Below, piece after piece: positions 1-8,029 of a stretch of 8,029 bases of DNA (within the stretch, counting starts at the first letter, position 1; the number at the start of each line of letters is the position of its first letter). Under the pieces are notes generated by a model. It saw only the letters and a program-made list of their open reading frames with translations, did not search any database and had not been told where the DNA came from. Made by a program: the position numbers and the translations under genes. Origin of the DNA: Candidatus Eiseniibacteriota bacterium (GTDB lineage: Bacteria > Arandabacterota > Arandabacteria > JAGLYR01); NCBI GenBank assembly GCA_023132135.1, contig JAGLYR010000161.1, positions 1-8,029 on the forward strand. The letters run 5' to 3'.

Positions 1-1803
1 GGTGATCAGATTCTGAACCGTGTTGTCGATGTGGGTCTTTCTGCCGGTCAGGTCGCCGATCGACTCGGCTTGCCCGGCTTTCAGCAGGACCGTGAGTTCG
101 GACGCTATCCTGTCGCGTGACCGAACCTGTTTCTGGAACTCGGCGTACCGGCCCTTCGCCCCGGCAGGGTCCCCCTGTGTCGAAGCGAGAACGCTGTGGA
201 GTTTGCTCGAGAGCTCCGAAGTCCGCTCATCGGCCGCCTTTATCTCCTCTGCAAGCACAGTGTGCCGGCGCAGCTTTTCCCGGAGCTCGCCCAACTCTCC
301 GGCCCCGGCAGTGGCGAGCTCTCCGAGGACACTGTCGACCTCCGCCAGGGCTCGGACGATCTCGATCACGTCCCTGGTCAGCCGCTGGAACCGCTGGACG
401 TCTTTCGGATCTTCCAGTCTGGGTCGAATGACCAGAAAGGCGATCCCGCCGGCAAGGATTCCGGCGCCCACCATCGTCAGAATCAGCTCGACCGTCTCCA
501 GCCTCAAACCGAAGCCCAGGGCAAGCCCGCCCAGAAACCCGACAAACCCAATTGCCGCCGCCTTCCGCCTCCGCCCTTCCCTCGCATTGGAATAGTGCGC
601 TTCGATCCGCTGCAGGTCCTGCCCCTTCTCCTCGAGATCCCTCTCCAGATCCGCCTTCCTGTTTAGCTGCTCAAGCACATTCTCCATACTACGATCCGCG
701 AAGACGGACTCTCCAAAAAGCCCCCGCACATCTGATTCAATGGTCTCCTGCTCCCGGCGGATGCGCTCTCTGCGGCTGTGGAGCGAGATCATTTCATCCG
801 CCCTGTCTTCGAAATCGGGCGGAGCGTCTTCGAATTCGGGATATTCCCTGAGAAGGGCCTCTTCCGCCTTGCCCAGATTGTCTACCAGGCCCTCGCAGGT
901 GGAAATCACATTTCCGAGACGGGCTTGCTCTTTTTCCTGGCCATGCAATTCCCGCTTCAGAACCTCCCACTTGTCCCAGGCTTCGAGGGTCGTCTTCGCC
1001 CTGCCTTGTTCTTCCCGGGCCCTCTCCAGGCCTTTCTCTTTTTCGGCCAGATCGTTCCTCAAACCTGCGAGGCCTGCCAGGGTGTCGCTGCTGGACTCGA
1101 TATTCTGCTTGAGCACCCGGATGTCCGCCTCAACCCGTTCCAGTTTCTGCTCATTGCGCGCATCCCTGGGCTGTTTTCCGGGCGACGCGATGCCATACTT
1201 CCCGCTCGCGCGGGTCACACTTCTGAAAGCCTCCACGAGCTTCTCAACGACATCATTGAAGCTGCGTTCCCCGCTCGCCGCAACAAGTTGCTGGACGGCA
1301 CCGCCTCTCTCCTCTCCATGCCCGGCGTCCGTTTCCTGAGTCACGCAGAACACAGACTCGAAGAGATCCTGGTCGGCGACTCCGAGAGTCTCCTTCAGGA
1401 TCCCGTTGTATCTCTCCACCTCCGTCCCGCGCCCGAACCGATTATGTTCACCGTCAAACAGGATGCGCGGCCCGCCATCGCCATCGATGGAAAGGCGGGT
1501 CTCGTGGGACTCGAACTCGCGCCGGAGACGGTACAGTTTGCCGGACGATGTGAACTCCAGCTCGCCCCAGAACCCGGGAGGCGAGTCCCAGTTCTTGAAT
1601 CGGGTGGTCGTGAAACCCTCTGTGTCACCTTCCCGCCGCAGAAGGCCGAACAGGGTTGCAAGAAGGCCGTTGACGAAGGTGGACTTCCCCGATTCGTTCG
1701 GCCCCGCAAAGACGGCCAGCGACGGATCCAGGATGAACGTCGTCGGATCCTTGTAGAGTCCGAATCCGCAGAGAGTGACCTTGTTGAACACCACATCAGC
1801 CAT
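1..1803 (-). CDS. SbcC/Rad50-like coiled-coil ATPase with membrane hairpin (YhaN-type), C-terminus cut off by window edge
   Basis: The frame is open from ATG at 1803 to the first base of the window, giving 601 codons with no stop; the C-terminal half lies outside. The N-terminal ATPase lobe has a Walker A motif GPNESGKST at residues 34-42 (Lys40) and a Q-loop-like SVFCVTQE ending near Gln156. From about residue 215 the sequence is charged and heptad-like, as in SMC/Rad50 coiled coils. This is interrupted at about 415-435 and 438-460 by two hydrophobic helices (AAAIGFVGFLGG..., then LTMVGAGILAGGIAFLVI) with a short turn. The basic flanks RRRK and RPR predict that both arms stay in the cytoplasm. 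I see no CxxC zinc hook in the visible part. Walker B, the signature motif and D-loop should lie in the missing half. The start overlaps the stop of the upstream nuclease gene by 8 nt (ATGGCTGA), so translation is probably coupled. By family knowledge it would act with that nuclease on DNA ends. The membrane hairpin resembles B. subtilis YhaN rather than soluble E. coli SbcC. The SbcC-like family call is firm; the YhaN subtype is inferred. Confidence 0.9.
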   Translation of the reverse strand, partial: MADVVFNKVTLCGFGLYKDPTTFILDPSLAVFAGPNESGKSTFVNGLLATLFGLLRREGDTEGFTTTRFKNWDSPPGFWGELEFTSSGKLYRLRREFESHETRLSIDGDGGPRILFDGEHNRFGRGTEVERYNGILKETLGVADQDLFESVFCVTQETDAGHGEERGGAVQQLVAASGERSFNDVVEKLVEAFRSVTRASGKYGIASPGKQPRDARNEQKLERVEADIRVLKQNIESSSDTLAGLAGLRNDLAEKEKGLERAREEQGRAKTTLEAWDKWEVLKRELHGQEKEQARLGNVISTCEGLVDNLGKAEEALLREYPEFEDAPPDFEDRADEMISLHSRRERIRREQETIESDVRGLFGESVFADRSMENVLEQLNRKADLERDLEEKGQDLQRIEAHYSNAREGRRRKAAAIGFVGFLGGLALGFGLRLETVELILTMVGAGILAGGIAFLVIRPRLEDPKDVQRFQRLTRDVIEIVRALAEVDSVLGELATAGAGELGELREKLRRHTVLAEEIKAADERTSELSSKLHSVLASTQGDPAGAKGRYAEFQKQVRSRDRIASELTVLLKAGQAESIGDLTGRKTHIDNTVQNLIT

Positions 1804-2920
1804 GAGACTGCCCACCCCGCCAGGCTTGCCATGCGTGCCGTAGAGCCAGGCGCACGATGGTTTTGTCCTTCTCCGTCTCGGCCTGTCTTTCCTTTTCGCG
1901 TAGTGTTCGAATCACGATGGCCAGGGGAGTTTCCTCCCTGGCCGCCGCATCCACGGCGGAGGTTTCCATCAGAGTGAAGCCGTCGTCAATCTCGAAATGG
2001 TAGAAGCAATCACTCAGCTCCGTTTGGAGCAGACTCGAAGGAGGCTCGAAGCCGGCAGCACCCATCAGCACCAGACGGAGAATGAGATCCGCGTCGGCCA
2101 TCTCCTCGATGGCTTCCCGGAGGGCATCGGGATCTCCCAGTGAACCGAGATCAACATCCCGCGTTTCAATGCGCCGGGTCTCGAGGGGGATTCGCTCCGC
2201 CCTGGGATTCCCGTCCCCCAGACGGACCACGGTGAGCTCCGAGCAGCCCGGGTCATCGAATCCTGATCCCTCGATGAGACCGGGATACACGGCCAGGCCG
2301 TTGAGAAGCCTGATCACATCCGGCTTGTGGATGTGGCCAAGGGCTACGTAGTCCACGCCCAGTCCGGCCAGTTCCTTCGACGTCGTGTGGATGGAACGGT
2401 CGCCGCCGGGCAGGTTGACGGAGGCGTGCAGGATGGCGACGTGCAGCCCTTCGGGCTCAAGGGCGATGGAAGTGTCCAGAGTCCCGGAAGTGATCCCCGC
2501 CTGGTAGGCCAGTCCGTAGAAGTGGCAGGTGCCCTCGGCGGTCTCCACCGTCGCAACCCTCGACCATTGGGGCGAGGTCACCAGGATCCCCGGCCAGCGG
2601 TCCTTGTGTTTCAGGTAGACGCAGTCGCTGTAGCTCAGCTCGTCGTGGTTCCCCGGCAGGGTGATCACCGTCTTTCCGGCGTCCACCAGGCGACGAAGCT
2701 CCCGGATGACGTCGCCCACCAGGGACGCCTCGGGTTTGTAGGTCTCGAACAGATCTCCGGCGATCACGACCGCGTCCACCTCGATAGGGTCCTTCAGGAC
2801 CCGGTCGACGACCCGGCGGAGGACACCGTCGGCTTCCCTCTTCCTCTCCGTTGCCCTGTCCCCGAGATAGCTGTGGGACCGGCCGAGGTGGAGATCTGCG
2901 AGATGGAGGATTCGGATCAT
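1796..2920 (-). CDS. SbcD/Mre11-like metallophosphoesterase (YhaO-type DNA nuclease subunit)
   Basis: This 374-residue protein carries the full set of calcineurin-like phosphoesterase metal-binding motifs in order: DLHLG at 9-13, GDLF at 55-58, GNHD at 90-93, HAS at 165-167 and GHIH at 195-198. Family members use these to hold two metal ions (usually Mn) and to act as exo/endonucleases on DNA ends. A less conserved C-terminal part (about 225-374) would be the capping and ATPase-binding region. The protein is a typical length for SbcD/YhaO. It has no signal peptide, so it is cytoplasmic. The ATG at 2920 follows GAGGAG with an 11-nt spacer, slightly long but usable. Another ATG at 2930 is in a different frame and only opens a shadow reading. 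The stop overlaps the start of the Rad50-like ATPase gene by 8 nt, which supports a stoichiometric two-subunit complex. The gene symbol is withheld because sbcD and yhaO cannot be separated with certainty. All key metal ligands appear intact. Confidence 0.93.
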   Translation of the reverse strand: MIRILHLADLHLGRSHSYLGDRATERKREADGVLRRVVDRVLKDPIEVDAVVIAGDLFETYKPEASLVGDVIRELRRLVDAGKTVITLPGNHDELSYSDCVYLKHKDRWPGILVTSPQWSRVATVETAEGTCHFYGLAYQAGITSGTLDTSIALEPEGLHVAILHASVNLPGGDRSIHTTSKELAGLGVDYVALGHIHKPDVIRLLNGLAVYPGLIEGSGFDDPGCSELTVVRLGDGNPRAERIPLETRRIETRDVDLGSLGDPDALREAIEEMADADLILRLVLMGAAGFEPPSSLLQTELSDCFYHFEIDDGFTLMETSAVDAAAREETPLAIVIRTLREKERQAETEKDKTIVRLALRHAWQAWRGGQSHG

Positions 2921-3083: not shown

Positions 3084-4061
3084 CTACTCTCCCTCCACGA
3101 GCGCGCGTCCATGGGTCTTGAGCCACGCCAGCATTTCGCTGATCTTGCCCCGAGCGAGGCAGATGCAGCTGTCGGCCGCGCCGTAGTAGAGGTTGATGGT
3201 ATCCCCATCGTCGTCAATCGTCTGCCCGCAAGGAAACACAACCTGCCCCACATCGCCTACATCCTCGTAGGCCTCATCGGGGCCGAAGATCCACTCATCC
3301 CCGCGCAGGATACACTGTTCGGGGGTCGCCAGATCGAAAAGAGCGAGGCCCAGGCGGTAGATTGATCCCGAGGCAGTCTCGCGCACACCGTGGTAGATCA
3401 TGAGCCAACCCTCGGGGGTCTCGATGAGCGGCGTGCACAGACCAATCTTGTTGGCGTCCCACCACGCTCCGCGCCGCGCCGGCAGGATCATATTGTGGCT
3501 GCCCCAGTGACGCAGGTCCGGGGAGTAAGAAATCCACACGTGAGCGCCCAGGGTCGTGAGCGGGCGGTGAATCATCGCCCAGAAATCACCGATCCGGTGC
3601 GGGAGCAACGCAGCGTCCTTGTCCTCAGGAGGCATGATCACACCCAGGCGCTCGAAGCTCCGGAAATCTTCCGTGAGGGCAATCGAGACACCGGGGCCGC
3701 CTCGCGAGAAGGCCGTGTAGACCACGGCGTACTTCCCCAGTTCCTCGACCCAGGTGATACGGGCATCCTCAATACCCCAGAGCTCGCCAGGGTATTTCCC
3801 GGGATCCGGACTAAGGGTAGGTTCGGGATCGATTTTCCAGCCATCCACCCCGTTTTTCGACCGCGCGGCTGTGAAATGCGAATGGCCGTTGCGACCTTCA
3901 ACACGGCAAAACAGGAGAGTCGTCCCGTCCCGCAGGCGGGTCGCGGCTGGATTGAACACGGTGTTGCAGGGATACGGCCAGTCCCGGGCAATCAGGATCG
4001 GGTTGCCGTCGTGGCGGGTGAACAGGTCCGCGGGGTGCTCGGGCGTCTTTGCTTTCTTCAA
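3084..4061 (-). CDS. glycoside hydrolase family 130 protein (beta-mannoside phosphorylase or mannosidase)
   Basis: The predicted 325-residue protein has the GH130 five-bladed beta-propeller pattern: an N-terminal HDGNPIL, then NPAATRLRDG, then CRVEGRNGHSHF with Arg53. WGIEDARIT follows, with Asp99 at the position of the family's catalytic acid. KIGLCTPLIETPEGWLMIYHGV (205-226) and C-terminal YYGAADSCICLA complete it. The family breaks beta-mannosidic bonds with phosphate to give mannose 1-phosphate, and some members hydrolyse instead. Basic residues near the centre (Lys205, His224) lean towards a phosphorylase, but the subfamily and linkage cannot be set by eye. There is no signal peptide, so it acts in the cytoplasm. 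I prefer the TTG at 4061 because AGGGAG stands 7 nt ahead. A GTG at 4097 would add 12 residues and overlap the upstream stop, but has only a weak ribosome site. It follows the glycosyltransferase gene by 28 nt in one operon. Confidence 0.9.
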   Translation of the reverse strand: MKKAKTPEHPADLFTRHDGNPILIARDWPYPCNTVFNPAATRLRDGTTLLFCRVEGRNGHSHFTAARSKNGVDGWKIDPEPTLSPDPGKYPGELWGIEDARITWVEELGKYAVVYTAFSRGGPGVSIALTEDFRSFERLGVIMPPEDKDAALLPHRIGDFWAMIHRPLTTLGAHVWISYSPDLRHWGSHNMILPARRGAWWDANKIGLCTPLIETPEGWLMIYHGVRETASGSIYRLGLALFDLATPEQCILRGDEWIFGPDEAYEDVGDVGQVVFPCGQTIDDDGDTINLYYGAADSCICLARGKISEMLAWLKTHGRALVEGE

Positions 4062-4068
4062 TTGTTCT

Positions 4069-4074
4069 CTCCCT
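4069..4074 (-). promoter_or_regulatory. ribosome binding site that selects the TTG start of the GH130 gene
   Basis: AGGGAG on the minus strand lies 7 nt ahead of TTG 4061-4059. The upstream GTG at 4097, in the same frame, has no comparable site. This is the main reason for preferring the shorter protein. Confidence 0.6.
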
Positions 4075-4089
4075 GTTAGTCTTGTTCGG

Positions 4090-6327
4090 CTAGTCACTCG
4101 TCGGCGCCTGCGAGAACTCGAGCAACGACAGCTGCCAGGCCAGCAGTGACTCTGCGCCCTGATTCGCGTTCACGCGGTCCGGGTGAACTCCATCCCGGCA
4201 TCCGCCGGTGTTGAAATCGTACACAGAGAGCCCCAGATCATTCCGCCCCAGGAACCACTCGAAGGCCCGCCGCGCCTCTGTGCGCCACTTGACATCCTGG
4301 GTCATGCGGTACGCTTCCATGCAGGCGGACACCACGGCCTGAGCTTCGATGGGTTGCTGATCGAAGTGCGGCATGTGCCCGCCGCGCCGGTAGACGTCAT
4401 GGCTACCGACAGGCGAGAAATAGCCTTCCGGGGAAGTTTGGACTTTTGCCAACCACTCCAGGGAACGGAGGCCGGCTTGCACCATCTCACCGTCCTGCAT
4501 CCACTGCCCCGAGAGAATGAGCGCGTGCGGCAGCTTCGCATTGGCGTACGACAGAACAATCTCGAACCAGGGCCACTCGGCGTCCGCATTCCGGCGGTAG
4601 AGCTCGAAGAGGCGAGAGGCCAGAATGCGCCGCACCCTTTGAGCCTCGCTGTCGCCGCTGAAGCGGCGCAGATACTCGTGTACGCCGATAATCGCGAAGG
4701 CCCAGGCCCGTGGCGAACGGAACCCCTCGACAGCTCCTACGGCCTGGCCAAAGAGGTTCGCGGCCATTGCCACCTGGCCTTCCTCGCCCCCGTGCCCAAC
4801 AGCTGCACCCAGTCCCCAGAGAGCCCGGCCATGACTGTCTTCGGAACCCTCGGTCTCCAACCATCGGCGATCGTAGCCCATGAAATTCCGGAACCGACCG
4901 GAATCCGGGTTGTAGGCATGGGCCAGGAAGGCCAGATACTTGGCTGAAAGATCCCGCAAACCCTCAAGCTCTCCCGATATCTGTTCGGCCATGAGGACCA
5001 CTACCAGCGCCCGGGCATTGTCGTCCGTGCAGTACCCTTCTTGATACTCGGGAACACTGCCGATTGCGTGCTGCAGAATTCCTGTACTGTCTGTCATGCG
5101 CCGGAGGTGAGCGAGGTTCAGCCGGGGGAGCTCCACCTGTTCCGTCTCGGCCAACCTGGCCAGGCCGATGGTCTTGGGGTAGGAGGCTCTGCTCTCCTGA
5201 GCACTGGCAAAACTCCCGAGGTACTGCCGGGCCACCTCACGCCAGACCATCCCGCGACCGAGTTCGTAGGCCCGCTTCCTCAGAGCGTGGCGCTCGACCT
5301 CGTTATCCAGGAGTCGGAGAATCTGTTCGGCCAGCACTTCCGGATCCCGGAAGGGCGCCAGCAGTCCCCGGCCCTCTGCGAGAAGCTCCTCTGCGTGCCA
5401 GTACGGTGTGGAGACCACAGCCTTCCCGGCGCCTACCGCATAGGCCAGGGTCCCCGACGCTGCCTGCTCCTTGGCGAGGTAGGGCGTGACGTACACGTCC
5501 GCCGCGCCGATAAACTGCTTCAGCTCCTCCAGATCTACAAACCGGTTGTAGAAAACGACGTTGGACTGGAGACCCAGTTCTCTCACCTGGCGCTGGAGGG
5601 ACAACCGGTAGTCCTCCCCATGATCGCGCAGGACATGCGGATGCGTGGCGCCAAGGACAATGTACACCGCGTCCGGATGTTCCTTCACAACCTCAGACAT
5701 GGCCTTTATCATGTCTTCGATTCCCTTGCCGGGAGAGAGCAATCCGAACGTCAGAATCACGCTGCGGCCCTCAACGCCATACAAATCCTTGTAGTAATTG
5801 GGATCCACAAAGGGGATGTCATGGATGCCATGGTGGATGAAATCGATCTTGTCCGGCGGAATTCCGTAGGTATCCTTCAGGATTCCCTCGGACCGACGGC
5901 TCATCACGACCAAACGATCCGAGATACCGGCGATCTCGTTCATCACGGACCGCTGGTCATCCTCGGGGTGTTCCAGCGCTGTGTGGAGTGTGGTGACAAC
6001 CGGACTCCGGAGCTCTCGGAGGAGTTCAAGGATGTGCCCCCCCGCTACCCCGCCGAAGATCCCGTACTCGTGCTGAAGACAGACAACATCGACGTTGTTG
6101 ATGTTGAGGAAATCCGCCGCTTTGCGGTAGCTGGGAAGATCGTTCTGGGGAATCTCAAACCGTACCCGGTCGGGATAGGCGTAGCCGTCCGGCGTGTCGT
6201 TGATCGCCAGAACCTGGCAGACACCGTCCGCCACTTCTTCCGCCACCGCTTCACAGAGGTCGTGCGTGAAGGTAGCGATCCCGCACTGGCGGGGAAGGTA
6301 GTTCCCCACGAAGGCAATCTTCTTCAT
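4090..6327 (-). CDS. bimodular protein: GT4-family glycosyltransferase fused to a C-terminal alpha/alpha-barrel domain
   Basis: This 745-residue protein has two parts. Residues 1-375 form a GT-B glycosyltransferase of the GT4 type. They show the N-terminal loop FVGNYLPRQCGIATFT (6-21), QHEYGIFGG (85-93), TLHTALEH (113-120), the second Rossmann half starting ILTFGLLSPGKGIEDMIKAM (191-210), and the donor-site stretch KEQAASGTLAYAVGAGKAVV (286-305) followed by STPYWHAEELL. The usual second Glu of the EX7E motif is replaced (Tyr296), a variation within GT4. Residues about 385-745 are helical and look like a six-hairpin (alpha/alpha) toroid of glycosidase or epimerase type. Conserved-looking acidic/aromatic patches are GYCTDDNARAL (431-441), SEDSHGRALWGLG (495-507), EWPWFE and FNTGGCRDGVHPDRVNANQG. 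There is no signal peptide or membrane helix, so it is cytoplasmic. The ATG at 6327 has AGGAG 7 nt ahead. It is the first gene of an operon with GH130 28 nt downstream. GT4 donors are often GDP-mannose or UDP/ADP-glucose; the partner favours a mannose product, but that is inference. The GT assignment is firm; the barrel's activity is not. Confidence 0.92.
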   Translation of the reverse strand: MKKIAFVGNYLPRQCGIATFTHDLCEAVAEEVADGVCQVLAINDTPDGYAYPDRVRFEIPQNDLPSYRKAADFLNINNVDVVCLQHEYGIFGGVAGGHILELLRELRSPVVTTLHTALEHPEDDQRSVMNEIAGISDRLVVMSRRSEGILKDTYGIPPDKIDFIHHGIHDIPFVDPNYYKDLYGVEGRSVILTFGLLSPGKGIEDMIKAMSEVVKEHPDAVYIVLGATHPHVLRDHGEDYRLSLQRQVRELGLQSNVVFYNRFVDLEELKQFIGAADVYVTPYLAKEQAASGTLAYAVGAGKAVVSTPYWHAEELLAEGRGLLAPFRDPEVLAEQILRLLDNEVERHALRKRAYELGRGMVWREVARQYLGSFASAQESRASYPKTIGLARLAETEQVELPRLNLAHLRRMTDSTGILQHAIGSVPEYQEGYCTDDNARALVVVLMAEQISGELEGLRDLSAKYLAFLAHAYNPDSGRFRNFMGYDRRWLETEGSEDSHGRALWGLGAAVGHGGEEGQVAMAANLFGQAVGAVEGFRSPRAWAFAIIGVHEYLRRFSGDSEAQRVRRILASRLFELYRRNADAEWPWFEIVLSYANAKLPHALILSGQWMQDGEMVQAGLRSLEWLAKVQTSPEGYFSPVGSHDVYRRGGHMPHFDQQPIEAQAVVSACMEAYRMTQDVKWRTEARRAFEWFLGRNDLGLSVYDFNTGGCRDGVHPDRVNANQGAESLLAWQLSLLEFSQAPTSD

Positions 6328-6334
6328 TTATGAT

Positions 6335-6339
6335 CTCCT
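6335..6339 (-). promoter_or_regulatory. ribosome binding site of the glycosyltransferase gene
   Basis: AGGAG on the minus strand lies 7 nt before the ATG at 6327 (AGGAGATCATAAATG). It is close to ideal and fixes the start of the bimodular protein. Confidence 0.85.
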
Positions 6340-6360
6340 GGCTAGATGCGCGCGGTCGCC

Positions 6361-6389
6361 ATAGTACGCCCAAGCGGGGAAAATTTCAA
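6361..6389 (-). promoter_or_regulatory. sigma-70-type promoter of the GT4/GH130 operon
   Basis: On the minus strand TTGAAA (6384-6389) and TACTAT (6361-6366) are separated by exactly 17 nt. Each hexamer differs from consensus at one position. Transcription would begin near 6354, giving a leader of about 27 nt that ends in the AGGAG site before the ATG at 6327. No operator palindrome is evident over it, which suggests housekeeping expression. Confidence 0.8.
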
Positions 6390-6492
6390 CACACCTTTCT
6401 GCAGCCCACCCTCAGCCCTCACCACTACCATCGACCGCCAGCGAACGAAACTGAACCCCAAGGACCTGCAACAATGCCCAAGATAGCCTGGA

Positions 6493-6510
6493 TTATTCAT
6501 TGATCCCTGC
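6493..6510 (+). repeat. 18-nt motif, upstream copy (TTATTCA-N3-ATCCCTGC)
   Basis: TTATTCA TTG ATCCCTGC here matches TTATTCA GGA ATCCCTGC at 7984-8001 in the same orientation, with all 15 bases outside the central triplet identical. The two copies bracket the PLD-like gene. Unlike the downstream copy, this one is not followed by a clear inverted partner. It could be a degraded copy of a dispersed element or chance. Confidence 0.45.
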
Positions 6511-6549
6511 TGCGAGGGCGAGAGGGCCTGTTCCGATGCTCTTTTCCTT

Positions 6550-6591
6550 GGACTACGAACTAGGGACTACGTACCAGGGACTGTCTCTCAT
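6550..6591. repeat. 14-nt tandem repeat, two good copies and one decayed
   Basis: GGACTACGAACTAG (6550-6563) is followed directly by GGACTACGTACCAG (6564-6577), 12 of 14 identical. A third unit, GGACTGTCTCTCAT (6578-6591), keeps only the GGACT start clearly. It lies just upstream of the -35 of the PLD-like gene promoter (6603), so it could be regulator binding sites or a neutral slippage or dispersed repeat. Confidence 0.65.
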
Positions 6592-6602
6592 GCCCTTCTC
6601 CT

Positions 6603-6631
6603 TTGACACGCCCCCGGCATTGTCCTACTCT
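6603..6631 (+). promoter_or_regulatory. sigma-70-type promoter of the PLD-like gene
   Basis: A perfect TTGACA (6603-6608), a 17-nt spacer and TACTCT (6626-6631) form a near-consensus promoter. The start of transcription would be near 6638, leaving a short leader of about 22 nt with GGAGG at 6651-6655. No hairpin is visible in the leader, so control would be at initiation, if any. Confidence 0.8.
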
Positions 6632-6650
6632 CGCAGCCGGACATCTACCT

Positions 6651-6655
6651 GGAGG
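6651..6655 (+). promoter_or_regulatory. ribosome binding site that supports the TTG start of the PLD-like gene
   Basis: GGAGG lies 5 nt before TTG 6661-6663. This strong site, plus a signal peptide that begins right after it, supports the rare start codon over any internal ATG. Confidence 0.85.
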
Positions 6656-6660
6656 AAAGA

Positions 6661-7977
6661 TTGGCCGAGCGACTCGTGACCGCATCAGTCCTGTGGATCC
6701 TGATCCTCTTCGCAACGGCAGGGGCAGCAACCCAGCCTGCCGATTCCGTGGACGTCACGCCGGACCGCACTCAACTTGCCACCGCATCCGGTATCGAAAT
6801 CGAGATTATCGAATCCGCCCCGCTAGAGACGGAGCTGGACCAGGAGGACATCCGGAACACGTCCGACGTCTGGGTGGAGATGATCGAGGGGGCCGGGGAG
6901 TCTCTGGATCTGGCCGAGTTCTATCTGAGCAATACCAAGGGCCACGGGCTGCTCGAACCGGTGATCGAGGCCGTGACCGGCGCCGCCGGGCGCGGAGTCA
7001 AGGTTCGCCTCCTCGTCGAGAAGTCATTCTATGATACTTACCCGGAGACGATCGACCGGCTTGGGGAAAGCGGAATCGAGGTCCGGTTCTTTGACATCAA
7101 GCCCCTGACCGGCGGTGTCCTTCACGCCAAGTACTTCATTGTAGATGGACGGGAGCTGTTCCTGGGTTCTCAGAACTTCGACTGGCGGGCGCTGGAACAC
7201 ATCCACGAGATCGGGCTTCGGGTGGTCTCAGAGAGCCTTGCGCTCACGCTGGTGCATCTGTTCGAGTTCGACTGGGCCCTCGCCGGAGGAGAAGAGCCCA
7301 TGGCCGCAGCGGATGCGGAACCGGCCGAGGACAAGGATGGAGACGGTCTGCCGGACGGGATCGATCCGACCCCGGACGTCGCCACGTGGAACGAGGAACC
7401 CGGCGGCGGGATCCATCGGGCCTACCTCGTGGCTAGCCCGCCGGAGCTCAACCCTCAGGGAATCCCGGGAGCGGAGGACGAACTGATCCGGCTGATCGAC
7501 TCCGCAGAGAAGGAGATTCTGGTCCAGCTCTTGAGCTACTCCCCCGCCGGCAGACGCGGGGGCTATTACGCGACGATCGACAACGCGCTCAGGGCAGCTG
7601 CGAACCGCGGGGTCAAGGTCCGGATGATCCTCTCCGACTGGAACAAGCGCCGCCCGGGGATCGATCACCTCAAGAGCCTCTCCCTCATCCCCAACATCTA
7701 CATTCGTCTCAGTACCATCCCTCAGTGGAGCGAGGGATTCATCCCCTTCGCCCGTGTCGAGCACTGCAAGTACATGGTGGTCGATGAGAAGATCCTGTGG
7801 GTGGGCACCAGCAACTGGAGCGAGGACTACTTCCACAGCTCGCGAAATGTCGAGATGGTGGTCGAGGCGGAAACGCTGGCTGAGCGGATGTGGCACCTCT
7901 TCTACTTCGGCTGGAATGGGCCATACACGTATCCGATACGCGTGGATATTGATTATCCGGCGCCGAGAATACGCTAG
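6661..7977 (+). CDS. exported two-HKD phospholipase D superfamily protein resembling PLD3/PLD4
   Basis: The protein has 438 residues and starts at TTG. Residues 1-23 look like a Sec signal peptide (Arg4, hydrophobic 5-19, ATAGAA) with no lipobox Cys, so it should be periplasmic or secreted. Two HxKx4D motifs follow: His155-Lys157-Asp162 with GSQN at 169-172, and His368-Lys370-Asp375 with GTSN at 382-385. Both are complete, so one active site with a phospho-histidine intermediate is expected. Framing motifs such as LDLAEFYLS, GGVLHAKYFIVD, FDWRALEH, RGVKVRMILSDW and NWSEDYF follow the layout of animal PLD3/PLD4 and poxvirus K4/F13, rather than cardiolipin synthases or classic secreted phospholipases. 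Between the halves (211-245) lies an acidic linker with DKDGDGLPDGID (224-235), a thrombospondin-3/dockerin-like calcium motif. PLD3/4 relatives are 5' single-strand nucleic acid exonucleases and lipid transphosphatidylases; which applies here is unknown. The gene stands alone, with its own promoter, divergent from the glycan operon. Confidence 0.93.
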   Translation: MAERLVTASVLWILILFATAGAATQPADSVDVTPDRTQLATASGIEIEIIESAPLETELDQEDIRNTSDVWVEMIEGAGESLDLAEFYLSNTKGHGLLEPVIEAVTGAAGRGVKVRLLVEKSFYDTYPETIDRLGESGIEVRFFDIKPLTGGVLHAKYFIVDGRELFLGSQNFDWRALEHIHEIGLRVVSESLALTLVHLFEFDWALAGGEEPMAAADAEPAEDKDGDGLPDGIDPTPDVATWNEEPGGGIHRAYLVASPPELNPQGIPGAEDELIRLIDSAEKEILVQLLSYSPAGRRGGYYATIDNALRAAANRGVKVRMILSDWNKRRPGIDHLKSLSLIPNIYIRLSTIPQWSEGFIPFARVEHCKYMVVDEKILWVGTSNWSEDYFHSSRNVEMVVEAETLAERMWHLFYFGWNGPYTYPIRVDIDYPAPRIR

Positions 7978-7983
7978 CCTGGG

Positions 7984-8001
7984 TTATTCAGGAATCCCTG
8001 C
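7984..8001 (+). repeat. 18-nt motif, downstream copy (TTATTCA-N3-ATCCCTGC)
   Basis: This copy matches 15 of 18 bases of the motif at 6493-6510, on the same strand. It forms the left arm of the terminal inverted repeat. Together the two copies flank the PLD-like gene with its promoter. Confidence 0.45.
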
Positions 8002-8029
8002 AACCCTCTCGCTACGGGATTCCTGAATA
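7985..8029 (+). terminator. 14-bp perfect inverted repeat after the PLD-like gene (terminator or dispersed palindrome)
   Basis: TATTCAGGAATCCC at 7985-7998 and GGGATTCCTGAATA at 8016-8029 are exact reverse complements around a 17-nt loop, 8 nt past the stop codon. The position suits a terminator. However, the loop is long, no U-run is seen before the window ends, and the stem may continue beyond the edge. The left arm overlaps the downstream copy of the 18-nt motif also found at 6493-6510, which favours a REP-like or otherwise dispersed element. Confidence 0.6.

Follow-up and report, generated by a model that had tools for sequence, protein, structure and literature searches.

The closest structurally solved relative of the protein analyzed here, and the one solved member of its bacterial family, is SpPLD of Serratia plymuthica AS9 (PDB 7e0m), whose structure was published as that of a phospholipase D (PMC8004604). 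The consulted passages of that publication report no assay (PMC8004604). In these passages, data on the GS-GT motif are stated to be lacking, nuclease-like features such as the shortness of the loop joining helices 10 and 11 are noted, and the paper closes by asking about nucleic-acid hydrolytic activity of the protein; SpPLD is compared there with lipases and Nuc-type nucleases, at a time before the PLD3 structure was released (PMC8004604). Further relatives are PLD3 and PLD4, which are lysosomal 5' exonucleases, and the vaccinia nicking-joining enzyme, all of which act on nucleic acid (PMC10783504, PMC8497607, PMC11879855). Vaccinia K4, the nicking-joining enzyme, lies nearer to PLD3, with 48% identity, and vaccinia F13 has been described as an envelope/membrane phospholipase (PMC11879855). 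In PLD3, the ssDNA product is contacted by H201, K203, N218, H416, K418, N432, Y126, D220, and Y411, the last of which binds O5' and packs against the base by stacking, and E229 is the proposed proton acceptor (PMC10783504). Two PLD3 structure papers, when searched, mentioned neither SpPLD nor Serratia. We found no paper in the open-access literature that links SpPLD with PLD3, and no measured activity of any bacterial family member in the literature.

The Gene and Its Product

The window, i.e., the whole stretch of 8,029 nucleotides that was analyzed, carries an intact open reading frame of 438 amino acids with a TTG start and a TAG stop (Table 1). A Pfam search with the protein returned two PLDc_2 domains (E 2.2e-36). 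In line with the original prediction, the two HKD motifs are intact, and the further motifs listed there (FYLS, GGVLHAKYFIVD, FDWRALEH, NWSEDYF, and FYFGWNGPY) were all found in the protein sequence. In the AlphaFold2 model, the N-terminus forms a hydrophobic helix (residues 2-20), after which confidence is low over residues 23-42, as expected for a signal peptide; the signal peptide proposed earlier was therefore retained and graded as probable. Of 132 homologues, judged by simple heuristics and with guessed start sites, 118 have a hydrophobic N-terminus and 13 a lipobox-like pattern. The enzyme is probably exported and would be periplasmic or extracellular.

Pattern searches throughout the source assembly identified this protein as the sole close family member, with more distant PLDc_2 proteins on two other contigs. 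Another two-HKD protein of the source genome (G000, contig C286, positions 6207-7181), a more distant PLDc_2 protein, lies in an 824-aa open frame and has a long N-terminal extension and what looks like a signal peptide.

Table 1. Positions of the gene and its features within the window.
Feature	Position	Strand	Basis
GGAGG, likely ribosome-binding site	6651..6655	+	read in sequence; TTG start 5 bases downstream
PLD3/4-type two-HKD gene	6661..7977	+	ORF, two PLDc_2 domains, fold
Probable signal peptide, ~residues 1-23	6661..6729	+	hydrophobic helix 2-20, then low-confidence stretch; homologue N-termini
HKD motif 1, H155-K157-D162-GSQN172	7123..7176	+	sequence; conservation in 132 homologues
Calcium-type linker DKDGDGLPDGID between lobes, residues 224-235	7330..7365	+	sequence motif; pLDDT <50 at 223-236
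HKD motif 2, H368-K370-D375-GTSN385	7762..7815	+	sequence; conservation in 132 homologues
FYFGWNGPY, C-terminal, residues 414-422	7900..7926	+	sequence; motif named in the original prediction

Family Membership and Predicted Fold

A single-sequence search of the PDB (phmmer) returned 7e0m as the best match (4.5e-95) and PLD3 as the next (4.9e-46), followed by the vaccinia nicking-joining enzyme, PLD4, F13, and NucT (7e-5). A profile built from 23 homologues agreed with this order of solved relatives, with 7e0m at 3.7e-126, PLD3 at 4e-80, the vaccinia nicking-joining enzyme at 7e-75, and PLD4 at 3e-70, and with lower matches to F13 (6e-35), NucT (7e-12), and Streptomyces PLD (5e-8). The NCBIfam model for NucT scored 52.5 bits, below its curated cut-off of 297. 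In a quick tree of 108 rows, the family and PLD3 were split with support of 99 from an outgroup with E. coli ClsA, ClsB, and ClsC; the outgroup branches were long, and PLD3 was a single long-branched row joined to another long branch. A more careful tree of 46 rows placed the window protein in a clade of 16 rows (support 97/91, order within the clade unsure), which includes homologues from Serratia, Acidobacteria, Aminicenantes, and Elusimicrobia. Identity as a cardiolipin synthase was rejected by the split in the quick tree and by the NCBIfam score of 53.9 bits, which does not reach the curated cut-off of 290.

The AlphaFold2 monomer model, computed from 64 natural sequences, reached a mean pLDDT of 88.9 and a pTM of 0.85, with values below 50 only at residues 23-42 and 223-236. 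Structural comparison with VIA-align gave the highest score for 7e0m (Z 54.4, rmsd 2.1, 43% identity over 370 aligned residues), followed by PLD3 (Z 48.7, rmsd 2.7, 372 residues), with both lobes being PLD3-like. Z-scores for the other structures were 48.2 for PLD4, 43.3 for F13, 32.5 for phosphatidylserine synthase, 30.0 for PLD2, and 27.9 for Streptomyces PLD. Foldseek recovered the same groups, i.e., 7e0m, then PLD3/4, then F13, with the rest below. A PLD3-like fold between the two HKD halves, which had been proposed as a check, is thus predicted (PLD3 and PLD4 versus Streptomyces PLD).

The window protein almost certainly belongs to an SpPLD-type bacterial family with a PLD3/4-type fold. 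The relationship to PLD3 and PLD4 put forward in the original prediction stood with regard to fold and family, but not with regard to an isolated relative of the animal enzymes: since its nearest relative is bacterial SpPLD, the protein takes its place within a broad bacterial family. That it is distinct from cardiolipin synthases and from the Nuc family, a check proposed in the original prediction, was borne out by the profile order, Foldseek, VIA-align, and the tree split.

Active Site

The two HKD motifs follow the patterns H155-A-K-x4-D162 ... GSQN172 and H368-C-K-x4-D375 ... GTSN385, and their residues H155, K157, D162, N172, H368, K370, D375, and N385 are invariant across 132 homologues. 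In the comparison with PLD3, H201/K203/N218/H416/K418/N432 correspond to H155/K157/N172/H368/K370/N385, and Y126/D220/Y411/E229 correspond to Y88/D174/F363/E183. Twelve of 14 compared positions are identical, the exceptions being Tyr411, which is replaced by Phe, and Glu423, which is replaced by Asp; among the residues that hold the ssDNA product in PLD3, only Tyr411 is changed (Phe363). At eleven active-site positions, Y88 and D174 among them, none of the 132 homologues deviates, and Phe occupies the Tyr411 position in the window protein and in 87 of the 132. Many conserved active-site residues are general to HKD enzymes. Cardiolipin synthases do not align reliably outside the HKD motifs, so the compared residues are not claimed to separate nucleases from lipases.

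Distribution and Genomic Context

An alignment query identified at least 468 loci encoding relatives in the genome collection, whereas a query with the single protein gave none. The best 80 of these loci belong to Marinimicrobia, Ignavibacteria, Aminicenantes, Planctomycetota, Elusimicrobia, Myxococcota, Enterobacterales, and others. Of 386 genomes drawn broadly, 22 had a relative, as did 44 of 377 genomes from the phylum of an uncultured Myxococcales homologue (L096). Seven other genomes from the window's own phylum had none, a result in keeping with acquisition by transfer or with repeated loss. Copies on plasmids are found in Chimaeribacter, Duffyella, and Sphingomonas, under the annotation "phospholipase D-like domain-containing protein". 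A phage origin was rejected, as 50,697 phage records held no match to the window protein; among viral predicted structures, the matches were poxvirus and giant-virus proteins of low identity.

Comparison of homologue loci revealed no gene neighborhood conserved across phyla, with sharing only within small groups. Four loci (L052, L063, L064, and L079) have a gene for a patatin-like lipase (GGGARG motif) in the vicinity of the PLD gene, directly downstream of it in L064 and L079; for those four lineages, this hints weakly at a lipid context. Within the window, a Mre11/SbcD-like phosphoesterase (1796-2920, minus strand) adjoins a long AAA/SMC-like ATPase cut off by the window edge, and this pair (1-2920) resembles a DNA-repair pair of the SbcCD or YhaO/YhaN type. 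The gene of a GH130-type mannoside phosphorylase overlaps that of a 745-aa protein whose N-terminal part is a GT4 glycosyltransferase (3084-6327, minus strand), and the two likely form a mannan or beta-mannoside module. Pfam returned no family for the C-terminal half of the 745-aa protein at E 0.001, and homologues of this protein with 57-58% identity occur in two genomes of the same class.

Copies of a palindromic, MITE-like repeat, TAGCCTGGRTTATTCABGAATCCC ... GGGATTCVTGAATAAYCCAGGCTA, lie on both sides of the PLD gene (6484-6510 and 7975-8029). The downstream copy begins with the TAG stop codon of the gene, and the contig ends within this copy. The source genome has 105 half-site matches (≤2 mismatches); seven other genomes of the same phylum have none (≤1 mismatch).

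Substrate and Proposed Function

Judged by the nearest solved relatives, i.e., the Serratia "phospholipase", PLD3, and PLD4, cutting of single-stranded DNA or RNA outside the cell is more likely than cutting of lipid, and we lean toward nucleic acid (single-stranded DNA or RNA) as the substrate. Nucleic-acid enzymes make up two of the three nearest named groups from eukaryotes or viruses, namely PLD3/PLD4 and the vaccinia nicking-joining enzyme; the profile order, the Z-scores, and the retained residues of the ssDNA product site also speak for this substrate. Counted against this assignment are the change of Tyr411 to Phe, the generality of the retained residues among HKD enzymes, and F13, a described phospholipase; as F13 has the same fold, fold alone cannot tell nuclease from lipase. 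The protein would act as a secreted two-HKD phosphodiesterase of the SpPLD family in the periplasm or outside the cell, most probably as a 5' exonuclease on single-stranded DNA or RNA. Both lobes together would build one active site, in which one HKD histidine would attack the phosphate and form a covalent phosphohistidine, while the other would serve as acid and base and water would free the product, all without requiring a metal ion. Such an enzyme may have a scavenging role.

It is possible, if less probable, that the protein is a secreted phospholipase D or transphosphatidylase, which would apply the same phosphohistidine chemistry to a phospholipid and thereby scavenge phosphate or carbon or make unusual lipids. 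This would agree with the published designation of SpPLD, with the phospholipase F13, and, as a weak hint, with the four patatin-like lipase neighbors, but the consulted passages of the SpPLD paper hold no assay and note nuclease-like features, and classic PLDs are much less alike in sequence and fold. It is very improbable that the protein is an antibacterial effector, or a nuclease that acts in defense or conflict and is related to DISARM DrmC: DrmC is the best NCBIfam match (91.6 bits, E 5.3e-26) and several PADLOC DrmC models match the protein, but the NCBIfam score does not reach the curated cut-off of 133, no other DISARM genes were recognised in the window, where the neighbors are the glycosyltransferase, the GH130 enzyme, and the SbcD-like/AAA pair, and neither a neighbor shared across phyla nor a match among the phage records was found.

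The family itself was already known, as a large bacterial one annotated only as "phospholipase D-like"; of value is the link of this neglected SpPLD family with PLD3/4, which leads to the testable prediction that its members are extracellular single-strand nucleases. PLD3 and PLD4 have been linked with lupus and Alzheimer's disease. If the prediction is true, bacterial family members could serve as stand-ins for them.

The Calcium-Type Linker

The stretch DKDGDGLPDGID fits DxDxDGxxDxxD, a calcium repeat pattern of the thrombospondin type 3-like kind. The motif goes beyond chance, as D.D.DG..D..D arose in only 7 of 200,000 shuffles of the window protein and two homologues carry a motif of this type at the same place. 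It is rare, being present in three of 132 proteins, i.e., the window protein, L096, and a homologue from the phylum of L096 (L132). Residues 223-236 have low confidence in the model, which contains no calcium, and are predicted to be disordered. A Pfam search with a 46-aa linker query gave no match at E up to 10, under filters that drop weak short matches. Since L096 also resembles the window protein in the residues past the motif, common descent of the two linkers is plausible; for the calcium-linker proteins as one clade, the AU test gave p 0.08, which neither rejects nor establishes such a clade. Besides its linker motif, the myxobacterial protein (L096:3467-4852) has another motif of calcium type, DLDRDGTPNAVD, close to the N-terminus. 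The inserted linker of the original prediction is therefore real as a motif, while a role in calcium binding is a possibility suggested by the motif pattern. We consider unlikely the wider proposal of old, widespread bacterial secreted 5' exonucleases, kin to the PLD3/PLD4 line, with a subgroup whose Asp-rich linker would bind calcium and set extracellular stability or activity.

Comparison with Known Enzymes

With SpPLD, the window protein shares homology over its full length, predicted secretion, two HKDs, the GS/GT motifs, and Phe at the Tyr411 position. It differs in its linker, which measures 53 residues and contains DxDxDG, whereas that of SpPLD measures 31 residues and lacks the motif. 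With PLD3 and PLD4, it shares the fold and, for PLD3, 12 of 14 compared active-site positions, but identity is only ~32% and two residues are exchanged (Tyr411 to Phe and Glu423 to Asp). Furthermore, PLD3 is a type II membrane protein that is then cleaved (PMC10783504), whereas the window protein has a probable signal peptide. The vaccinia enzymes K4 and F13 are both reached by the profile (7e-75 and 6e-35), and F13 is also alike in structure (Z 43.3). Cardiolipin synthases, Nuc/NucT, and Streptomyces PLD have the superfamily and HKD chemistry in common with the window protein, but are set apart by sub-cut-off scores, the tree split at 99, and the Z of 27.9 for Streptomyces PLD.
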